The notes beneath the pieces are model-generated. The model did no database searches, was not told the origin of the DNA, and saw nothing but the letters and a program-made list of their open reading frames with translations. From the NCBI RefSeq assembly GCF_008039615.1, contig NZ_VDUZ01000002.1, positions 124,001-188,000 on the forward strand: a stretch of 64,000 bases of DNA, written 5' to 3'. Numbering within the stretch: position 1 is the first letter of the stretch; every line of letters starts with the position of its first letter. The translations under genes and the position numbers were made by a program. Shown piece by piece: positions 51,742-64,000 of the stretch. The DNA is from Vineibacter terrae (lineage in GTDB: Bacteria > Pseudomonadota > Alphaproteobacteria > Reyranellales > Reyranellaceae).

Positions 51742-52287
51742 CTACTTCCCTGCCAGCGCCCGCTCGGCCGTCGCAGCGGCGTCGTCGAACTGGGTCTCCA
51801 GCCATGGGTGCACACCGCGCAGGCCGGCGACGACGTCGCGGCCCCAGCGGACGTAGTCCAGGCGGCGTTCGGTCGACCAGTCGGCCGGCGGGCTGGCGGC
51901 GAGGTCGCGCAGGTTCGACGTCTTGTCGGCCAGCTTCAGCATCTTGGCGCGGTCGGTCTTGCCCGGTGCATGCACGACCTGCTGGCGCTTGCGCTCCTGC
52001 TTGGGCAGCGACTTGTCGTCGGTGACCTCGCTCACCAGCGCTGCGATATCCTCGTTGAAGGTCGCCGCCAGCTCGTCCCGCGTCGTCTGGGTATCCTCCA
52101 GAACGTCGTGCAGCAGGCCGGCCGCGACCAGGTTCGCGTCGCGGCCATGCACCGCCACCGCCAGCAGGTGAGCGACCTCGGCCAGGTGGTTGACATAGGG
52201 CTCGGCGTTAGCGCCCTTGCGCCGCTGATGCACATGCTTCTCAGCGGCGAAAGCGAAGGCCCGGGTCAACAGCAGGACCTCGTCCAT
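51742..52287 (-). CDS. MESH1-like HD-domain (p)ppGpp hydrolase
   Basis: 181 residues from ATG 52287, the size of a stand-alone hydrolase without synthetase or regulatory domains. Motifs match MESH1/SpoT HD domains: HQRRKGANAEPYVNHLAEV (His34), GLLHDVLEDTQTT (His60, Asp61), VTDDKSLPKQERKRQQV, and KMLKLADKTSNLRDL (Asp121), which supply the Mn ligands. It would hydrolyse ppGpp to GDP and pyrophosphate; related enzymes also act on NADPH. It is co-directional with, but separated by about 115 bases from, the hydratase operon. It is divergent from the acyl-CoA ligase gene. Confidence 0.85.
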   Translation of the reverse strand: MDEVLLLTRAFAFAAEKHVHQRRKGANAEPYVNHLAEVAHLLAVAVHGRDANLVAAGLLHDVLEDTQTTRDELAATFNEDIAALVSEVTDDKSLPKQERKRQQVVHAPGKTDRAKMLKLADKTSNLRDLAASPPADWSTERRLDYVRWGRDVVAGLRGVHPWLETQFDDAAATAERALAGK

Positions 52288-52423
52288 GATCACGCTCCTC
52301 AAGCGTGGCGCGCAGCGTGCCACGACGCCGGCCGGAGCGCCACACCCCGGACGGCGTAATCCTTGACTTCAATGCTGCCGCATCGACACTCGCGCACCAA
52401 TCGAACCAGTTGGGAGATACGTC

Positions 52424-53965
52424 ATGGATGTCCGCACGCAGATGCGCAGCGCCGCAGGCTACTACGCGCAGCGCGAGGCGATCGTCGCCGGAGGCCGGCG
52501 GCTCACCTTCGCCCAGGCCTGGGAACGCGGCATCCGCCTCGCCAACGGCCTGCTGGCGCTGGGCCTGCAGGCGCAGGACCGCGTCGCGGTGCTGGAGGAC
52601 AACCGGCTCGAATCGGCAGACATGTTCCTGGGCGCCGCCATCGCCAACCTCGTGCGCGTGCCGCTCTATCCGCGCAATGCCCGTGACAGCCACCTGCACA
52701 TGATGGGCCATACCAACTGCCGCGTCCTGGTGGTCGACGAGAAGCACCTGCCCGAGATCGAGGGCCTGCAGGCCGAGCTGCCCGACCTGCAGCACGTGAT
52801 CGTGCGCGACGCCGGCTACGAAGCCTGGCTGGCAAAGCAGTCGGCCGTCGATCCCGACCCCAAGATCGCACCCGACGACAACTTCATCATCCGCCACACC
52901 GGCGGCACGACCGGCAAGAGCAAGGGCGTCGCCTATTCGCACCGCGCCTGGCTCGCCGCCGGCCGCGACTGGTTCTACCTCTATCCGCCGGTCGAGCCGG
53001 GCGACACCGCCCTGCATCTGGGTCCGATCAGCCACGGCTCGGGCTACCTGTTCACGCCGGTGTGGCTGGCTGGCGGCTGCAACGTGATGATGGACCGCTT
53101 CGATCCGGCCGCCGTGCTCGACACCTTCGAGCGCGAGCGCATCGGCTACCTGTTCATGGTGCCGACCATGCTCAACGCCATCAACCGCATCCCCGGCATC
53201 GAGCAGCGCAAGTTCCCCCACCTGAAATGCATGCTGGTGGCGGCGGCGCCGATCGCCGACGACACGGCGATGAAGGCCTACGAGATCTTCGGCAAGGCTA
53301 TGTACCAGGGCTACGGCCAGACCGAGGTGCTGCCGGTGGCGATGATGGGCCCGGCCCAGTGGTTCGCCACGGACGTGCCCGGCTCGACGCCGCTGCGCGC
53401 CTGCGGCCTGCCGCTGCCGTTCGCGCAGCTGCAGATCTGGGACGAGGGCAACAAGCCCGTGCCACCGGGCACGCCCGGCGAGATCGTGGCCAAGACCGAC
53501 GGCCAGATGACGGCGTTCTGGAACGATCCGAAGGCGACGGCCGAGCGCCTCGTCGACGGCTGGGTGAAGACCGGCGACGTCGGCTACCTCGATGCCAACG
53601 GCTATCTCTACATGGTCGACCGGGTCGGCGACATGATCGTGTCGGGCGGCTTCAACATCTACCCGGCCGAGCTCGAGAACACGATCTCGGACCATCCCGA
53701 CGTGATCGAGGTGGCGGTGTTCGGCATCCCGCATGAGCGCTGGGGCGAGACTCCGTGCGCGGTGTGCACCGTGAAGGCCGGCGCCAGCGTGACCGAGGCG
53801 GAGCTGATCCAGCTCTGCGAGGAGCGGCTGGGCAATTACAAGCGGCCAGGCAAGGTCGTGCTGCGGGCCGAGCCGCTGCCCAAGACGCCGGTGGGCAAGA
53901 TCAAGCGCAAGGAGCTGCGCGAGCCGTTCTGGGTCGGCCACGGGCGCCGGGTGGCGGGCAGCTGA
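52424..53965 (+). CDS. AMP-dependent acyl-CoA synthetase/ligase
   Basis: 513 residues. ANL superfamily motifs: P-loop IRHTGGTTGKSKGVAYSH, YQGYGQTEVLPV, TGDVGYLDANGYLYMVDRVGDMIVSGGFNIYPAELE, and the C-terminal TPVGKIKRKELRE with the catalytic Lys. It activates a carboxylic acid as acyl-AMP and then acyl-CoA. The SGGFNIYPAELE wording is that of medium/long-chain or aromatic acid CoA ligases; the exact acid is not predictable. It stands alone between a divergent ppGpp hydrolase and the converging patatin gene, which could supply its fatty acid substrate. Confidence 0.88.
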   Translation: MDVRTQMRSAAGYYAQREAIVAGGRRLTFAQAWERGIRLANGLLALGLQAQDRVAVLEDNRLESADMFLGAAIANLVRVPLYPRNARDSHLHMMGHTNCRVLVVDEKHLPEIEGLQAELPDLQHVIVRDAGYEAWLAKQSAVDPDPKIAPDDNFIIRHTGGTTGKSKGVAYSHRAWLAAGRDWFYLYPPVEPGDTALHLGPISHGSGYLFTPVWLAGGCNVMMDRFDPAAVLDTFERERIGYLFMVPTMLNAINRIPGIEQRKFPHLKCMLVAAAPIADDTAMKAYEIFGKAMYQGYGQTEVLPVAMMGPAQWFATDVPGSTPLRACGLPLPFAQLQIWDEGNKPVPPGTPGEIVAKTDGQMTAFWNDPKATAERLVDGWVKTGDVGYLDANGYLYMVDRVGDMIVSGGFNIYPAELENTISDHPDVIEVAVFGIPHERWGETPCAVCTVKAGASVTEAELIQLCEERLGNYKRPGKVVLRAEPLPKTPVGKIKRKELREPFWVGHGRRVAGS

Positions 53966-53967
53966 TC

Positions 53968-56688
53968 CTATTTCGACGCCCCGGCCAGGGGCGCCAGCGG
54001 CGGCGGCGCCGGCGCCCAGTCCCTTTCACAGCGCGCTGACGCGGCCTCCTGCGCCTCCAGCCCGGAGACCGTCGCCAGCCGCACGCACAGCCGCACGAAC
54101 TCGGCGCGATTGCCGCACGGATCGCCGGCGCCGGGGTCCAGCCCCAGCATCTTGTTCATGACGTCCCAGGCGTCCTCGGAGTCGTGCCAGCTCATGGTGG
54201 GACCCTTGCGCATCGCCACCTTGCACTGGCGGAAGTGGAAGACATCGATCTCGGAGTCCGTCCGCAGCCGCCTGCCGAGCGCGCCGAGCCTGTCCTTGAC
54301 CTCGTCGATCGTCCCGCCGGCATAGCGGACGGCATCCTCCATGCGGTCGCGCACGATGATCTTGTTCTCGATGATCCGGTCATACAGCGCCGTCGCCGCC
54401 GCCTCGCCACGGGCGACACGGCCATTGTAGAGCGCCAGCCCCGGGTCGACGACGACCAGCGCCGCGTTGGATGCATCCTTCTCGCACTCCAGCCAGTCGT
54501 TGCCGGGATGCGCCAGCAGCGGCGGCTCGTCCGGCTTGAAGGGAGGCGGTGGCGGCACGAGGCCGCGGGCGCGCCGGCGCGCTTCGGATCGCGCCGCGTC
54601 CACGATGGCACATTCGGGCTTCGCGCCCGCGCGCCGCCGCCCGGGCGGCTCGAGGCGGTCAAGCGACGGATCGCTGCTGATGAGGATCACCATCGGCCAG
54701 ACCGGATACTGCACCGGCCTGCCGCCCACGCCCTGCGTGTCGGCGCGGCGCTCCACGACGTAGCGCAGCACCTCATCGGCCGTGACGGCGCCGAAGTTCT
54801 CATACAGGCCGCCGTCGGTGACGCGGGCCCAGAGCACGCCCTTGTCGTCGCGCATGCCGCCCGTAGGCGAGATCACGGGGAACCGGGCGCTCATCGTGAC
54901 CGCGGTGCTGATGCGGATGTCGCGGCCCAGGATGTCGAAGGCGTCGTAGCGGTTCACCTGCCCGGCGAGGTCCTCCCGCGCCCCCCGGGGCGCGGTGTGG
55001 AAGCGGACATTGGCGGTGACGATCCGCTTGCCCTTCTCCACGGAGGTGCCGTTGAGCGCCAGGATCGGCCAGACGCGGTCACGGTCGGTGCCTGCCGGCG
55101 GCACGGCGAAGGTATCGACGAAGCCGGCATCCCATGCGAATGGCGCCCGGCCCTTGTCCTTGATCGTGCGGGCCCAGGCCGCTTCCCATGCCTTCTCCAA
55201 TGCCGCCGCCCGGTCGTCCGGCGACAGGCCAGGAAAGGCGTGCAGCGGCAGGTCGACATAGAGGCCGGCCGCCATGGCGGGGCCGAGGAAATCACTCTTG
55301 ATGAACTCGGCGGCCATCGGCGCCGCCTGCGCGATCCTGGCCGCGCCGCCACCGGGCTTGCGCCGCTCGGCCTCGACCAGCGAGCGGAACGCAACGGCGC
55401 CCAGCGAGCCGCCCGAGACGCCGCTGATCAGGAAGACCCGATCGGCGAAATGCGCTTCGCGCTCGGCGATCTCGCCCAGCACCTGCGTGGTCCAGTAGCC
55501 GGCGCGGCTGGCGCCGCCGGCGGTCGCCACGACGATGAAGGGCGGCGTGTACACCGACGGCGCCACCGCGGCGTTGATGCCGGTCTGGCGGTCGACATTC
55601 GCCGCCCACCATGCCTTGAACACGGCATCGACATGCGGGCGCAGGGCCAGCGGCCTGTCCTTCAGGGTGCGGACGTCGTGGTTGTCGCCGGCCCATTGGG
55701 TCGCCACCACCATCCAGGCGACCGTGCCGGCGAAGATCGGCAGCCTGGTGCGCCTGGACAGCAGCACCAGGAAGCTGGTGATCGGCACCATGGCGGCCAG
55801 GCCCAGCAGCGTGGCGTTGACGGCGGTGCCGAAGAACGCGCTCGTGCCGACGGGATCGAGCGCGAAGGCGATCGCCAGGCATGGCGGGGCGATCAGCGAG
55901 ATCGACAGCACTGAGGCCGCCAGCGGGTTGGACAGGTAGTCGCGCAACCGGTCGTAGTGGGCCCGTCCGGCCAGGAGATGGTGGGCGCGCGACGTCGGCG
56001 GGATCCGAGGCGGCTGGTCCGGCTTGCCGACGATCAGCCCTTTGAGCAGCGGTTTGCGTATCCAGAGCACGGCGTACAGCACGCACGCGCCGCCGAGATA
56101 CATCCAGAACCACCGCCGGAACGTGCTGGCGGCGTCGAGGTCGCCGGCGTGCTGGTAGACCTCCGCCGCGTTCAGGAACGCCCAGCCGAACGACACCACG
56201 GCGCCGAAGGCGATCAGACGCGGCACCTGGTCGACCCAGAAGTCGCGCCACTCCTCCTGGAAGGTCGGCAGCGGTGGCTCCTGGCCCCGCGGCAGCGCCT
56301 CGGCCGCCGCCACGGGCTCCAGGACGAAGCTGTAGTTGAGGGTGACCCGCGCCCAGTACCACGACACCACCGCCCACAGAAAGGCGTAGGCGGTCATGCC
56401 GATCAGCTCCGACCAGCCGCGCCGCGGATCGACATTGCTGATGACGATGTCGCGCGCCTGGTCGGTGAGCACGATCAGGCCGCCGCCGACCACCACGGCC
56501 AGCAGCGATGCCCGGCAGGCCCAGAAGACCCGCGCTGCATCACATATCGCCCACCACGGCGTCGCCAGCCGCCGCGCCAGCCAGACCAGGGCGATCCCCG
56601 GCCACGAGCGGTCGACCAGCCAGTCGGCGAAGCGCTGTACGGCATTGCGCCGCGGCGGGTCAGGCGGTGGTGTCGGAGTCATCACCAT
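53968..56688 (-). CDS. Membrane-anchored patatin-like phospholipase
   Basis: About 906 residues from ATG 56688 (56682 and 56775 are alternatives). The first 330 residues contain about six membrane helices (SLLAVVVGGGLIVLTD, IGMTAYAFLWAVVSWYW, LIAFGAVVSFGWAFL, MYLGGACVLYAVLW, VLSISLIAPPCLAIAF, LLGLAAMVPITSFLVLL). The patatin domain follows: VATAGGASRAGYW (oxyanion glycines), GVSGGSLG with Ser425, and VTDGGLYENFG with Asp625 of the Ser-Asp dyad. The C-terminal 250 residues, from DEVLRYV on, are unlike known domains to me. It is probably an inner-membrane lipase with a cytosolic active site. It is divergent from a beta-lactamase-fold hydrolase gene. Confidence 0.86.
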   Translation of the reverse strand: MVMTPTPPPDPPRRNAVQRFADWLVDRSWPGIALVWLARRLATPWWAICDAARVFWACRASLLAVVVGGGLIVLTDQARDIVISNVDPRRGWSELIGMTAYAFLWAVVSWYWARVTLNYSFVLEPVAAAEALPRGQEPPLPTFQEEWRDFWVDQVPRLIAFGAVVSFGWAFLNAAEVYQHAGDLDAASTFRRWFWMYLGGACVLYAVLWIRKPLLKGLIVGKPDQPPRIPPTSRAHHLLAGRAHYDRLRDYLSNPLAASVLSISLIAPPCLAIAFALDPVGTSAFFGTAVNATLLGLAAMVPITSFLVLLSRRTRLPIFAGTVAWMVVATQWAGDNHDVRTLKDRPLALRPHVDAVFKAWWAANVDRQTGINAAVAPSVYTPPFIVVATAGGASRAGYWTTQVLGEIAEREAHFADRVFLISGVSGGSLGAVAFRSLVEAERRKPGGGAARIAQAAPMAAEFIKSDFLGPAMAAGLYVDLPLHAFPGLSPDDRAAALEKAWEAAWARTIKDKGRAPFAWDAGFVDTFAVPPAGTDRDRVWPILALNGTSVEKGKRIVTANVRFHTAPRGAREDLAGQVNRYDAFDILGRDIRISTAVTMSARFPVISPTGGMRDDKGVLWARVTDGGLYENFGAVTADEVLRYVVERRADTQGVGGRPVQYPVWPMVILISSDPSLDRLEPPGRRRAGAKPECAIVDAARSEARRRARGLVPPPPPFKPDEPPLLAHPGNDWLECEKDASNAALVVVDPGLALYNGRVARGEAAATALYDRIIENKIIVRDRMEDAVRYAGGTIDEVKDRLGALGRRLRTDSEIDVFHFRQCKVAMRKGPTMSWHDSEDAWDVMNKMLGLDPGAGDPCGNRAEFVRLCVRLATVSGLEAQEAASARCERDWAPAPPPLAPLAGASK

Positions 56689-56829
56689 GAGCGTCTGTTC
56701 AAACGAGACGGACACGGAGCGCAGATCAGCTTCAATTGTACCGCACGGACGGCGCCGGACGAACCCAAATCGCATAGGCAGTGCGACGGATCGTGGGCTA
56801 CAAATCGCCCGTCCGAAGGCGAGTCACCC

Positions 56830-57951
56830 ATGCTCCGTGCCGCGTTTCGTGTCTTCTGCCGCGTGCTCCTGCTGCCGCCGCTGGCTCTCGCCGCGGCGCC
56901 CGCGTCGGCGCAGACACCTGATGCCTTCGACGCCGCCTTCCGCGACTGGATGCAGACGAACGGCGTCGACAAGGGCACCCTGGCCGTCACCTATCGCGGG
57001 CGCCTGGTGCTCGAACGCGGCTATGGCGGCCAGGACCCGGGCCAGCGCGTGCTGCTGGCCAGCCTCAGCAAGGCGATCACCGGCCGCTGCATCGCCCGGC
57101 TGGTGTCGGACGGCCGGCTGCGCCTCGACGGCAAGGTCGGCGACGTGCTGGCGCCGTTCTTCCGCCAAGCCGGCGATCCGGCCGACGCACGGCTGAAGGA
57201 TGCCACCGTCGAGCAGCTTCTGGTGCACCGCGCCGGCTTCGCCGCGGCGCCGCGCGACCTGATGACCACGGCCGCCATGGATCTGCTGCAGACGAAGAAG
57301 TCGCCGGCCACGGCCACGCCCGCCGACCTGCTGGCGGCCACGCTGACGGCGCCGCTGGCATCGGCCCCGGGCGAGGCCTTCCGCTATTCCAATATCGGCT
57401 ACCTGACGCTGGGCGTGACGATCGAGACCATCACGGGCGAAAGCTACGAGCGGTTCTGCGGCCGCGAGATGCTGGAGGCCGCCGGCATCCGGGCCCCCCG
57501 GCTCGACTCCGAATGGCGCTCGTTCTCGTCGTTCGGCGGCTGGTCCCTGAGCGGCACCGAGTACCTGGCGTTCCTGGCGCGCGATCGCCTGCGTGACCTG
57601 CCGTGGCGTGGCCTGCTGGCGGAACCGGACGCGCGGCACGCGGCCGACGGCGCGCCGATTCCATGGCCGTCGGCGTGGTACGGCCTGGGCCAGTTCATGG
57701 CCGACATCACGTCTTCATCGCGCATCGCCTGGCATACCGGCACCTGGGGCGTGCCGCCGAGCACCTTCGGCATGACGGCGATGCAGCACCAGGACGGCGC
57801 GGCATGGTTCGTGTGGTACACGCCGCGCCCGGGCAAGGCGGCGACCGACGCGCTGGTGGAGCGGCTGGCGGCGCTGCCGGCGACCATCACCGCCTGGCCC
57901 GAGAACGACCTGTTCCCCGAGCGCGGGCTGCCTTCGCCGGCGGCCAAATGA
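56830..57951 (+). CDS. Exported serine hydrolase of the class C beta-lactamase family
   Basis: 373 residues from ATG 56830, with a signal peptide (FRVFCRVLLLPPLALAAAPASAQ). The active-site SxxK is Ser78-Leu-Ser-Lys81 (ASLSKAITG), followed by YSN (FRYSNIGYLTLG) and the HTG triad (WHTGTW). The family covers esterases, D-aminopeptidases and penicillin-binding-like enzymes as well as beta-lactamases; nothing in the sequence marks it as a resistance enzyme. It is periplasmic. Its start is 141 bases from that of the divergent patatin gene. A hairpin terminator of the next gene follows three bases after the stop. Confidence 0.88.
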   Translation: MLRAAFRVFCRVLLLPPLALAAAPASAQTPDAFDAAFRDWMQTNGVDKGTLAVTYRGRLVLERGYGGQDPGQRVLLASLSKAITGRCIARLVSDGRLRLDGKVGDVLAPFFRQAGDPADARLKDATVEQLLVHRAGFAAAPRDLMTTAAMDLLQTKKSPATATPADLLAATLTAPLASAPGEAFRYSNIGYLTLGVTIETITGESYERFCGREMLEAAGIRAPRLDSEWRSFSSFGGWSLSGTEYLAFLARDRLRDLPWRGLLAEPDARHAADGAPIPWPSAWYGLGQFMADITSSSRIAWHTGTWGVPPSTFGMTAMQHQDGAAWFVWYTPRPGKAATDALVERLAALPATITAWPENDLFPERGLPSPAAK

Positions 57952-60591: not shown

Positions 60592-61275
60592 TCAAACTAG
60601 CCGATAGCCGACGCCGGCCTCGGTGATCAAATGCCGCGGGCAGGCCGGCTCGGCTTCGACCTTCTGGCGCAGCTGGCGGATATAGACCCGCAGGTACTGC
60701 GGATCGACGCTCTCGTCGCGCCAGGCCTCGCGCAGCAGGTGGCGGTGGGTGAGCACCTTGCCGGCATGGATCACGAGCTGCTCCAGGATGTCGTACTCCT
60801 TGGGCGACAGCTTGACCTCGCGGCCGCCGACCGCGACGTGGTGATGCACCAGGTCGACCCGCAGGTCGCCGCTCTCGAACACCGGCCGGGTGCCCTGCTG
60901 CTGCAGGCGGTGGCGCAGCGCGGTGCGGATGCGGGCCATCAGCTCCTCGGCGCCGAACGGCTTGGTGACATAGTCGTCGGCGCCGGCATCGAGCGCCGCC
61001 ACCTTCGCCGGCTCCTCACCGCGGCTGGAGAGCACGACGATCGGCACCGGGTTGTCGCGCCGCACCTGGCCGATCAGATCGAGCCCGTCGATGTCGGGCA
61101 GGCCGAGATCGAGCAGCATCAGGTCGACCTGATGATGGCGCAGCATGGCGAGCGCATCGCGCGCGGTGGCGGCCTCGATCACGCGATAGTCCTGCGCCCC
61201 CAGGGTGGTGCGCAGCAGGCGGCGGATCGGCGGCTCGTCATCGACGACCAGGATGGCGGCGGCGTCGCTGGTCAT
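60592..61275 (-). CDS. kdpE: KDP operon response regulator KdpE
   Basis: 227 residues of the OmpR family. Receiver: ILVVDDEPPIRRLLRTTL, phosphoacceptor Asp56 (LMLLDLGLPDIDGLDLI), VLSSRGEEPAKVAALDAGADDYVTKPF. Winged helix: VKLSPKEYDILEQLVIHAGKVLTHRHLLREAW, QYLRVYIRQLRQKVE. KdpE activates kdpFABC for high-affinity K+ uptake when phosphorylated by KdpD. The kdpD gene lies just upstream on the same strand, separated by a 156-base gap that is largely a palindromic repeat. Confidence 0.94.
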   Translation of the reverse strand: MTSDAAAILVVDDEPPIRRLLRTTLGAQDYRVIEAATARDALAMLRHHQVDLMLLDLGLPDIDGLDLIGQVRRDNPVPIVVLSSRGEEPAKVAALDAGADDYVTKPFGAEELMARIRTALRHRLQQQGTRPVFESGDLRVDLVHHHVAVGGREVKLSPKEYDILEQLVIHAGKVLTHRHLLREAWRDESVDPQYLRVYIRQLRQKVEAEPACPRHLITEAGVGYRLV

Positions 61276-61282
61276 GGCGTCA

Positions 61283-61413
61283 TCTCCCTCCCCAGCTTCG
61301 CTGGGGAGGTGCCCCTAAGGGGCGGAGGGGAGCGGACGTGGTCTTGATCATGAAGACCGCGTCGGCTCCCCCTCCGGCCTTCGGCCACCTCCCCCAACTG
61401 CGTTGGGGGAGGG
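61283..61413. repeat. Compound palindromic repeat (family C), copy 2
   Basis: About 131 bases, closely related to the element at 47844. Left hairpin CTCCCCAGCTTCGCTGGGGAG, then GGTGCCCC...GGGGCGGAGGGGAG; a central GACGTGGTCTTGATCATGAA element; right GGCTCCCCCTCC and CTCCCCCAACTGCGTTGGGG. It lies entirely in the gap between kdpD and kdpE. Confidence 0.88.
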
Positions 61414-61431
61414 AAGTCTCAGATACCGCCC

Positions 61432-64000
61432 TCATCCTGCCACCGTCATCGCCGGAAAGCTTATCACGAACTCCGCGCCCGACCGGTCGGCGCGGTTGCG
61501 GGCCACGATCCGGCCGCCTTGCGCCTCGACGAAGCCCTTGGCGATCGCCAGGCCCAGGCCGGTGCCGGCCCGCCGCCGATCGCCTTCGCGGGCACGATAG
61601 AACTTCTCGAACACATGCGGCAGGTCGGCGGCCGCCAGGCCGGGACCTTCGTCGCGCACCGCGAGCAGCACGTGGCCGTTCTCCGCGCGTGCCTCGATCG
61701 CGATGGTGGTGCCCTCGGGCGTGTACTTGGCGGCGTTGTCCAGCAGGTTGAACAGCACCTGCTCGCCGAGCACGAAATCGAGCTCCACCGGCGGCAGGTC
61801 GGGCGCGACCGTCGTCGCCACCCGGTGTGCCCGCAGCAGCGGCTCGGCGCGCCGCAGCGCCGTGGCGATCAGGTCGGCGGCATCGACCGGCTCGCGCTTC
61901 ACGCTGACGGCGCCGGCGTCCAGCCGCGTCATGTCGAGCAGGTTGCCGACGAAGCGGTTCAGGCGCTCGGCCTCGTCCTGCGCCGTGGCCAGCAGCTCGT
62001 CGCGGGTGGCGGGATCGTAGCGCTCGCCGTAGCTGCGCAGGCTGGAGACGGCGCCCAGGATCGAGGCCAGGGGCGTGCGCAGATCGTGCGACACCGAGGT
62101 CAGCATGGCCGAGCGCAGCCGCTCGCGCTCGGCGCCCAGGCGCGCCGCATCGATGTCGCGCGCCAGCAGCACGCGCTCGATCGCCACCGCCGCCTGGTCG
62201 CCCAGCGCATCGAGCAGGCGGCGCTGCTCGGGCGTCAGCGGCGCGTCGTTGTCGCGGTTGATGACGCCCAGCACCGCCACCTTGCCGCGCGCCGTGCACA
62301 GCGGCACGAACAGGCGGCGCGCGCCGGGCAGCGAATCGCTGCCCTTGCCGGTGGGCTGGTCATGGTCCCAGCACCACAGCGCCGCCGCGAGGTCGGCGTC
62401 CTCCAGCATGTCCTCGGGCGGGAAGGCAGCCTTGATGTCGAGCGCGGTGCGGCCGGGCCGGTCGTGCTCGGGCATGAGCACCACGACCTCGACCCGCACC
62501 ATGCGCGCGATCTGCGCCACGATGGTCCACAGCAGGTCGTCGAGATCGGCGAGGCCGACGATCTTGCGGCTGAAGGAGTAGAGCTCCGCCGTCACCTGCG
62601 CCTCGCGCCGCGCCGCCAGCGAGCGCGAGCGCGAGCGCGTCGCCAGCGCGCTGGTGAAGACCGCCACCAGCAGGAAGAAGAACAGCGCGACGACGTTGGC
62701 CGGGTCGGTGATGGTGAATTCGTACAGCGGCGGCAGGAAGAAGAAGTTGTAGGCCACCGCGCCCAGCGCCGCCGCCCACACCGACGGCCAGATGCCGTGC
62801 CGCGCCGCGCTCAGCAGCACCGGCACCACGAACACCAGCGAGATGTTGCTGAGGTTGACCAGCCGGTCGATGCCGACGCCGATGATGCCGGCTACGATCA
62901 CGGACAGCGCCGCCTCGGCATAGGCCCAGGTCGGCGCGCGCTCGGGGCGCCAGCCGGCCCAGCTCGAATCGGCGGTGGCGTGCGTGGCGGCCACAACCTC
63001 GATCGCGATGCCGCCCGATGTGCGCACCAGGTCGTCGACGACCGAGCCGTGCAGCAGCTCGAACCAGGCCGAGCGGTTGGATTTGCCGACGACGATGCGC
63101 GTGACATTGCGCTCGCGCGCGAACGCCAGCACGTCCTCGGCGATGCGCCGGCCCGGGATGGTCGCGGCCTCGGCGCCCAGCCGCTCGGCCAGCCGGATGG
63201 TCTCGGCCAGCCGGCCGCGCTCGGCCTCGCCGAGCGTCGCGTGGCGGTCGGTCTCGACATAGAGGGCCAGCATCGGCGCCCGCAGGCTGTCGGCCGTGCG
63301 CTTGGCCGCCCGCACCACGTTCTCGGCGTCCGGCGAGGGATCGATGCAGACCAGCACACGCTGGCCGGCCGCCCACGGGCCGGCGATCGCATGCTCGCGC
63401 ATGTAGCTGCGCATCTGCTCGTCGACGCGCTCGGCGGTGCGCCGCAGCGCCAGCTCGCGCAGCGCCGTCAGGTTGCCGGGCGAGAAATAGTGCTTCAGCG
63501 CCCGCTCGGCGGCCTCGCGGACATAGACCTTGCCCTCGCCCAGCCGCTTGATCAGGTCCTCGGGCGTGAGGTCGATGACCTCGACGCTGTCGGCGCCGTC
63601 GACGATCGAGTCGGGCACCGTCTCGCGCACGCGGATGCGGGTGATGCGCGCCACGATGTCGTTGAGGCTCTCGACATGCTGCACGTTGAGCGTGGTGTAG
63701 ACGTCGATGCCGGCGGCGAGCAGCTCCAGCACGTCGAGGTAGCGCTTGGGATGGCGGCTGCCGGGCGCGTTGGTGTGCGCCAGCTCGTCGACCAGCACCA
63801 GGGCCGGGCGGCGGGCGAGGACGGCATCGATGTCCATCTCCTCCAGCGAACGGCCCTTGTAGTCGATGCGCCGCCGCGGGACCGCCTCCAGGCCCTCCAG
63901 CAGCGCCGCGGTCTCGGCGCGGCCATGCGTCTCGACCACGCCGACCACGACGTCGACGCCCTCGGCCCGGCGCTGGCGCGCCGCCGACAGCATCTCGTAG
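61432..64000 (-). CDS. kdpD: Sensor histidine kinase KdpD (N-terminus cut by window)
   Basis: About 856 codons are visible; the start and the Walker A part lie beyond the window. Visible order: KdpD N-terminal domain (VDVVVGVVETHGRAET, ALVLVDELAHTNAPGSRH), a universal-stress-like domain (VLVCIDPSPDAENVVRAAKR, RIVVGKSNRSAWFELL), four membrane helices (about YAEAALSVIVAGIIGVG to FFFLLVAVFTSAL), GAF, HisKA (SVSHDLRTPLASILGAV) and HATPase (LFNLLDNAAKYTPEG, GTGLGLAIAKGFVEAQGG). KdpD responds to low K+ and osmotic change and phosphorylates KdpE. kdpFABC would be expected upstream, outside this window. Confidence 0.95.
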   Translation of the reverse strand, partial: YEMLSAARQRRAEGVDVVVGVVETHGRAETAALLEGLEAVPRRRIDYKGRSLEEMDIDAVLARRPALVLVDELAHTNAPGSRHPKRYLDVLELLAAGIDVYTTLNVQHVESLNDIVARITRIRVRETVPDSIVDGADSVEVIDLTPEDLIKRLGEGKVYVREAAERALKHYFSPGNLTALRELALRRTAERVDEQMRSYMREHAIAGPWAAGQRVLVCIDPSPDAENVVRAAKRTADSLRAPMLALYVETDRHATLGEAERGRLAETIRLAERLGAEAATIPGRRIAEDVLAFARERNVTRIVVGKSNRSAWFELLHGSVVDDLVRTSGGIAIEVVAATHATADSSWAGWRPERAPTWAYAEAALSVIVAGIIGVGIDRLVNLSNISLVFVVPVLLSAARHGIWPSVWAAALGAVAYNFFFLPPLYEFTITDPANVVALFFFLLVAVFTSALATRSRSRSLAARREAQVTAELYSFSRKIVGLADLDDLLWTIVAQIARMVRVEVVVLMPEHDRPGRTALDIKAAFPPEDMLEDADLAAALWCWDHDQPTGKGSDSLPGARRLFVPLCTARGKVAVLGVINRDNDAPLTPEQRRLLDALGDQAAVAIERVLLARDIDAARLGAERERLRSAMLTSVSHDLRTPLASILGAVSSLRSYGERYDPATRDELLATAQDEAERLNRFVGNLLDMTRLDAGAVSVKREPVDAADLIATALRRAEPLLRAHRVATTVAPDLPPVELDFVLGEQVLFNLLDNAAKYTPEGTTIAIEARAENGHVLLAVRDEGPGLAAADLPHVFEKFYRAREGDRRRAGTGLGLAIAKGFVEAQGGRIVARNRADRSGAEFVISFPAMTVAG

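Follow-up and report, generated by a model that had tools for sequence, protein, structure and literature searches.

The closest described systems are enzymes of the patatin/PNPLA and cPLA2 groups, such as potato patatin, iPLA2-beta and cPLA2, whose fold carries a GxSxG serine, a DGG aspartate and a Gly-rich motif of the oxyanion type. The effectors CapV and CapE of the cyclic oligonucleotide-based antiphage signalling system (CBASS) work in the cytoplasm and are defined as being free of a membrane anchor and encoded beside a nucleotide cyclase. An envelope-located patatin domain occurs in PlpD of Pseudomonas, a type Vd patatin that is placed among the Omp85 outer-membrane barrel proteins in a published report (PMC11116518). 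Here, we analysed a stretch of 64,000 nucleotides from contig 2 of the 8.76 Mb genome of Vineibacter terrae (NZ_VDUZ01000002.1, positions 124,001 to 188,000; hereafter the window), which encodes a membrane-anchored patatin-like protein divergent from a serine hydrolase of family S12. This protein shares the fold and the three motifs of potato patatin, iPLA2-beta and cPLA2 within residues ~373-876 and differs from them by the apparent addition of seven N-terminal membrane segments, a probable periplasmic location, paired cysteines and a C-terminal WxxS motif. It is probably a divergent patatin-type lipid acyl hydrolase whose seven N-terminal helices anchor it in the inner membrane with the N terminus inside and the catalytic domain in the periplasm; a functional tie to the S12 hydrolase could not be demonstrated.

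The catalytic motifs were fully or almost fully conserved in the aligned relatives. In an alignment of the window protein with 15 relatives (A1, 16 sequences), the GGxxR motif (residues 391-395), which we take to be the oxyanion motif by its likeness to patatin and cPLA2 enzymes, was kept along with GVSGG or a near variant containing S425 and DGG or DAG containing D625, as were a DR...LE..WE stretch (492-502) and a SARFP-type segment. Beyond the DGG motif, R757, C822, W834 and S837 were among the invariant residues. S425, D625, R757, W834 and S837 were kept without exception in a broader alignment (A2, 17 sequences) that included plasmid relatives. Of 14 proteins scanned for the pattern [LM][GTS]WxxS, three of them also present in A2, 12 carried it; the exceptions were L105 and a second patatin, which is of a different type.

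In the AlphaFold2 model of the full protein, a helical membrane module at the N terminus precedes a patatin fold. Foldseek by itself gave zero matches at E up to 0.001, and the clear scores came from a second look with VIA-align. The full model aligned with iPLA2-beta (6aun) at Z 20.3 (root-mean-square deviation 3.8, 295 aligned), potato patatin (4pka) at Z 19.8 (deviation 4.8, 316 aligned), CapE at Z 19.1, the soluble part of PlpD at Z 17.3 and cPLA2 at Z 14.5, while the best unrelated row reached only Z 5.9, far under the patatin-fold scores. The catalytic part modelled alone scored slightly lower (iPLA2-beta, Z 18.9; potato patatin, Z 18.8). Identity to the patatin/PNPLA and cPLA2 structures in these structural alignments was 9-14%. 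Searches with the protein against PDB sequences returned nothing at E up to 1, and it had no match among NCBIfam, PADLOC and PHROGs profiles or in the phage collection. Because solved patatin-fold structures align across residues ~373-876, most of what the initial annotation had described as a separate, uncharacterised tail of 250 residues belongs to the catalytic fold and holds invariant residues, the four named above among them. The patatin-type domain itself, with Ser425 as its serine, had been recognised correctly. Judged from sequence and model, the protein is a divergent patatin type with a predicted hydrolase activity, its fold and motifs backing a sub-threshold Pfam match.

The membrane module probably has seven segments, with the N terminus inside and the catalytic domain in the periplasm. 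Family-mean hydropathy showed seven peaks before the catalytic domain, at residues 63, 100, 167, 201, 268, 301 and 325, and the AlphaFold2 model showed helices for the membrane segments; the multiple helices proposed earlier were thus upheld, with their number corrected from six to seven. Loops N, 2, 4 and 6 were richer in lysine and arginine than loops 1, 3, 5 and 7 in all 16 members of A1 (0.172 versus 0.090 per residue) and in 16 of the 17 sequences of A2. Cysteines beyond the membrane part, counted by alignment column, came to an even number in 14 of the 16 A1 members; odd counts were found in the distant L020 and in L031, which a contig end truncates. Six cysteine columns were conserved in 13-16 of the 16 sequences, and further cysteines were gained or lost pairwise, a pattern that disulfides in the periplasm would produce: eight rows shared both column 1209 and column 1225, column 446 occurred with 461 in four rows and with 451 in three, and 461 occurred with 841 in two. 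Seven segments before the serine were also counted in two relatives on viral contigs (L086 and L107) and in L073, L077 and L102. Together, the seven segments, the loop charges and the paired cysteines point to an N-in protein with a periplasmic and putatively disulfide-bonded catalytic domain. For the membrane part, no convincing fold match was obtained, the best (a NosDFYL chain, Z 5.9) lying within the range that VIA-align calls common.

In the proposed mechanism, the seven N-terminal helices would anchor the patatin in the inner membrane and keep its catalytic domain in the periplasm. Ser425 would be activated by Asp625, and G391/G392 and R395 would shape the oxyanion hole. On the periplasmic face, the Ser425-Asp625 dyad could then hydrolyse the fatty acyl esters of phospholipids, releasing free fatty acid and lysophospholipid, with disulfides stabilising the catalytic domain. 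Such an enzyme may serve lipid turnover or remodelling or, less likely, an inducible attack on the envelope. The features of the locus are collected in Table 1.

Table 1 Features of the patatin locus, in window coordinates
Feature	Position	Strand	Basis or remark
Membrane-anchored patatin-like protein, 906 residues	53968..56688	-	Translated frame, weak PF01734 match, alignment A1
Probable seven-segment membrane module, residues ~54-334	55687..56529	-	Family hydropathy peaks, model helices, positive-inside test
Patatin-fold catalytic domain, residues ~373-876, including most of the so-called tail	54061..55572	-	VIA-align range on full model
Oxyanion-hole-type motif GGASR, residues 391-395	55504..55518	-	G391, G392 and R395 invariant in A1
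Ser425, predicted nucleophile, in GVSGG	55414..55416	-	Invariant in A1 and A2
Asp625 in DGG, predicted dyad partner of Ser425	54814..54816	-	Kept in every row of A1 and A2
C-terminal MSWHDS motif, residues 832-837	54178..54195	-	W834 and S837 invariant
Intergenic region, 141 bases between starts	56689..56829		Consensus scan gave no sigma-70-like site; no conservation across genus
S12 serine hydrolase (beta-lactamase fold), 373 residues	56830..57951	+	PF00144; signal-peptide-like residues 1-28
AMP-binding acyl-CoA ligase	52424..53965	+	Profile matches; adjoins S12 gene without patatin in genus g5

Two described types were considered for the window protein and rejected. CapV and CapE share its patatin fold (Z 15.6-19.1) and, possibly, a conflict setting with its distant relatives; their matched chains are ~300-345 residues long without a membrane module, whereas the window protein has a predicted membrane anchor and no defence-family match. 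It was not assigned as a CBASS effector, given this anchor and flanking genes that encode the ligase, the S12 hydrolase, an HD hydrolase and an S1-domain protein, the search for cyclases covering these flanks. Nor does it appear to be a type Vd autotransporter like PlpD, with which it has in common an envelope-located patatin domain: its model is without a barrel, and the membrane part is predicted to be N-terminal and helical.

Relatives were scattered. In the survey of the bacterial family, 22 of 75 genomes carried one: all four of the genus of the window, 18 of genus g3 and none of the six from genera g2, g4 and g5. Even draws from the class and the phylum yielded matches in at least 13 of 385 genomes (seven of them long) and at least 8 of 398 (five long), with at most two candidates scored per genome; short partial matches were excluded from the full-length relatives, and L109 was left out of a further alignment (A5) as too weak. 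The order of membrane module and patatin domain, for which the initial annotation had proposed a homologue search, recurred in relatives, sporadically and also on plasmids, including a cyanobacterial one, on a Bacteroidetes contig and on viral contigs, four of which carry a relative. The plasmid relatives comprised eight records, from Azospirillum, Rhizobium ruizarguesonis, Rhizobium beringeri, Mesorhizobium, Alteromonas, Agrobacterium, Caballeronia and Nostoc. Those from Azospirillum, Rhizobium, Mesorhizobium and Nostoc agree with the window protein in domain order and motifs and differ in neighbours and length. The Azospirillum, Rhizobium and Mesorhizobium copies, 24-29% identical to the window protein, are annotated as 'hypothetical protein' and the Nostoc copy as 'patatin-like phospholipase family protein'. 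A literature search in which subscription journals were poorly covered returned no description of this membrane-patatin architecture. The patatin thus belongs to a scattered and little-described protein family.

The neighbours of some relatives suggest another role for the same anatomy, that of an effector in a biological-conflict module (phage defence or inter-bacterial), in which a triggered membrane patatin would degrade the cell's own envelope lipids and the chromosomal window copy would perhaps be a domesticated offshoot. Conflict-type genes were found within 5 kb of four of the eight plasmid relatives. In Azospirillum, 138 bases separate the copy (L073 3-6464) from a long SIR2-TPR gene upstream of it, an arrangement that resembles a two-gene conflict module, and the R. 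ruizarguesonis copy has a caspase gene nearby. Near the R. beringeri copy (L076 1660-8819), which is split across two overlapping frames, two TIR domains, one of them matching ThsB_TIR, occur with Nmad2 and a glucosaminidase/VanY cell-wall hydrolase. Around the Mesorhizobium copy (L077 2-9839; wider region L127), a second patatin, pYEATS, PLD, multiubiquitin/ThiF and a ZacC-like helicase form a dense island. On one viral contig (L086 4101-7545), an AbiV (HEPN) gene follows 316 bases downstream of the membrane patatin, and on another (L107 3375-8469), the patatin is divergent from an SU10-type phage portal gene. The patchy distribution and high divergence of the family would also suit such a role.

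As a control, six 50-kb stretches taken from three of these plasmids yielded a single conflict gene (AbiEii/AbiGii) among 247 listed features; ordinary toxin-antitoxin, UvrD and reverse transcriptase genes, which these stretches also hold, were excluded from the count together with AAA genes. The categories were chosen after the neighbours had been seen, and the association is therefore a lead rather than a test. The other four plasmid relatives showed none within 5 kb: the neighbour annotation of the Alteromonas, Agrobacterium and Caballeronia copies, in which hypothetical neighbours were judged by annotation only, contained no conflict-type genes, and the HEPN gene annotated 5.1 kb from the Nostoc copy was unsupported by a Pfam scan. 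The window copy and its relatives in the bacterial family lie amid metabolic genes (one to three genes scanned at eight loci), and PADLOC models run on three family members (P0001, L020 and L032) recognised zero families at E up to 1. An all-against-all BLAST of the neighbours revealed no constant partner gene beyond local synteny, save for a cytochrome gene near two distant relatives. An effector role for the window protein is accordingly considered unlikely. The broader proposal, that an unnamed mobile family of seven-helix periplasmic patatins supplies the membrane-destroying effector of several unrelated conflict systems (those with SIR2, caspase, TIR, pYEATS or AbiV neighbours), with the Reyranellaceae copies as a chromosomal branch, seems rather improbable. 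Such an effector would attack the envelope from the outer face of the inner membrane, whereas CapV and CapE are thought to attack from the cytoplasm.

The cytochrome genes near the two distant relatives encode homologous cytochrome c proteins (L074 8851-10903 and L080 8719-10518), RoxA-like in L080 and annotated as a di-heme cytochrome c peroxidase in L074.

Several observations weigh against a periplasmic patatin with seven helices. The PF01734 score of the window protein, 19.9 bits, falls under the Pfam cut-off of 27.7, so that the patatin call of the initial annotation was a non-trivial one; this cut-off is a detection threshold rather than a biological feature, and the same profile matched 13 of the 16 A1 members at E up to 1 and exceeded the cut-off in the distant relatives L086 (28.0 bits), L078 (38.4) and L125 (34.1). 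The full AlphaFold2 model, built from only 8 sequences, was of moderate confidence (mean predicted local distance difference test score 67.5, predicted template modelling score 0.71), and the catalytic part modelled alone was poorer (57.8 on the former measure). In a single-sequence scan at a strict cut-off, only four segments of the window protein were detected, with segments 2, 4 and 7 missed. Other numbers of segments were counted in several distant relatives at the cut-off used: 6 (L104, L105), 8 (L103, L124), 11 (L085, L078), 12 (L125) and 2 (L075). L075, the A2 exception in the charge comparison, is shorter and lacks most of the membrane module. Being drawn from related sequences, the cysteine counts are not independent.

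With an even number of helices, six or another, the catalytic domain of the same protein would be cytoplasmic and would act on the inner leaflet. The weakness of the segments in single sequences and the even counts in six of 14 proteins at the chosen cut-off (L075, L103, L104, L105, L124 and L125) speak for this arrangement. Set against it are the seven family-mean peaks, the charge bias in 16 of 16 sequences and the cysteines, even in number and gained or lost pairwise, so that a cytoplasmic domain is decidedly unlikely.

The initial annotation had also read the patatin and the S12 hydrolase as a pair under one signal, acting from two sides of the inner membrane. Both frames, their strands and the 141 bases between the starts were correct as described, and so was the exported hydrolase: it matches PF00144 at E 2.2e-33 (116.3 bits against a cut-off of 27), contains SLSK at 78, YSN at 186 and HTG at 302, the SxxK, YxN and HxG motifs of such enzymes, and begins with 28 residues that look signal-peptide-like by eye. 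The S12 product is predicted to face the periplasm, as is the patatin catalytic domain. Hydropathy, loop charges and cysteines thus place that domain on the side of the hydrolase, which contradicts the two-sided action.

The S12 gene adjoins the patatin gene, divergently, in all four genomes of the genus. It was found within 1.5 kb of a patatin match in none of the 18 genomes of g3, the other genus with the gene, two of whose loci are short or partial. The block of rpsA, S12, patatin, ligase and HD genes is syntenic as a whole within the genus of the window, with one contig stopping before rpsA. In genus g5, the ligase and S12 genes occur without a patatin, side by side in G007 and G009 and one gene apart in G011 (loci L110, L111 and L112; intervening gene in L112); a fourth g5 genome, 67% complete, had neither a patatin nor a close ligase match. 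The ligase is also carried by G006, G021, G023 and G037, with neither patatin nor S12 within 1.5 kb of it. Since the whole block is syntenic and the ligase-S12 neighbourhood exists without the patatin, the pairing says little about function. The refuting condition given in the initial annotation thus had a split outcome: homologues of the supposed tail were conserved, whereas the pairing was kept only within the genus.

The lengths of the intergenic region in the four genomes were 141, 235, 159 and 76 bases, and its mean identity was 35%, against 37.5% for shuffled DNA. A consensus scan of the 141 bases, which covered the sigma-70 type of promoter only, found no sigma-70-like site. Together with the lack of pairing beyond the genus, this argues against one shared signal. 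Cell-wall-type genes do occur near three distant relatives (the glucosaminidase/VanY gene in L076, an M23 gene in L081, and, around L074, genes annotated as lysozyme and as peptidoglycan-binding). Even so, a functional pair is very unlikely, and the partnership looks accidental, with no demonstrable functional tie.

Within the genus, identity to the window differed by gene: rpsA 96-97% and cmk 87-88% (two genomes each), ligase 88-90%, HD gene 78-83%, S12 65-69% and patatin 46-49%. Full-length g3 copies were 38-49% identical to the window patatin, about the same as those of its own genus, with one outlier at 27% and one partial match at 30%. In the tree, from which L020 was left out, a weakly supported branch (56/96) had the copies of the genus on one side. 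The occurrence of the ligase-S12 neighbourhood with and without the patatin seems to reflect either an insertion of this gene or its loss. Within the bacterial family, the patatin gene is accessory and changes fast.

An alternative in-frame ATG upstream of the patatin start would give 935 residues. The HD gene encodes a small stand-alone hydrolase of the RelA/SpoT type (PF13328, window 51742-52323) and stays beside the ligase across the genus. A response regulator and a long sensor kinase that looks KdpD-like by eye lie at 60592-63993. No Rfam families reached gathering scores in the window.

These results correct a tempting but unsupported gene pairing in the window. Bacterial patatins gain a polytopic and probably periplasm-facing architecture, one that, in the profile libraries tried here, goes undetected or scores close to or under the cut-off. 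If the conflict link of the relatives on plasmids and viral contigs were true, this architecture would represent an envelope-side phospholipase effector.

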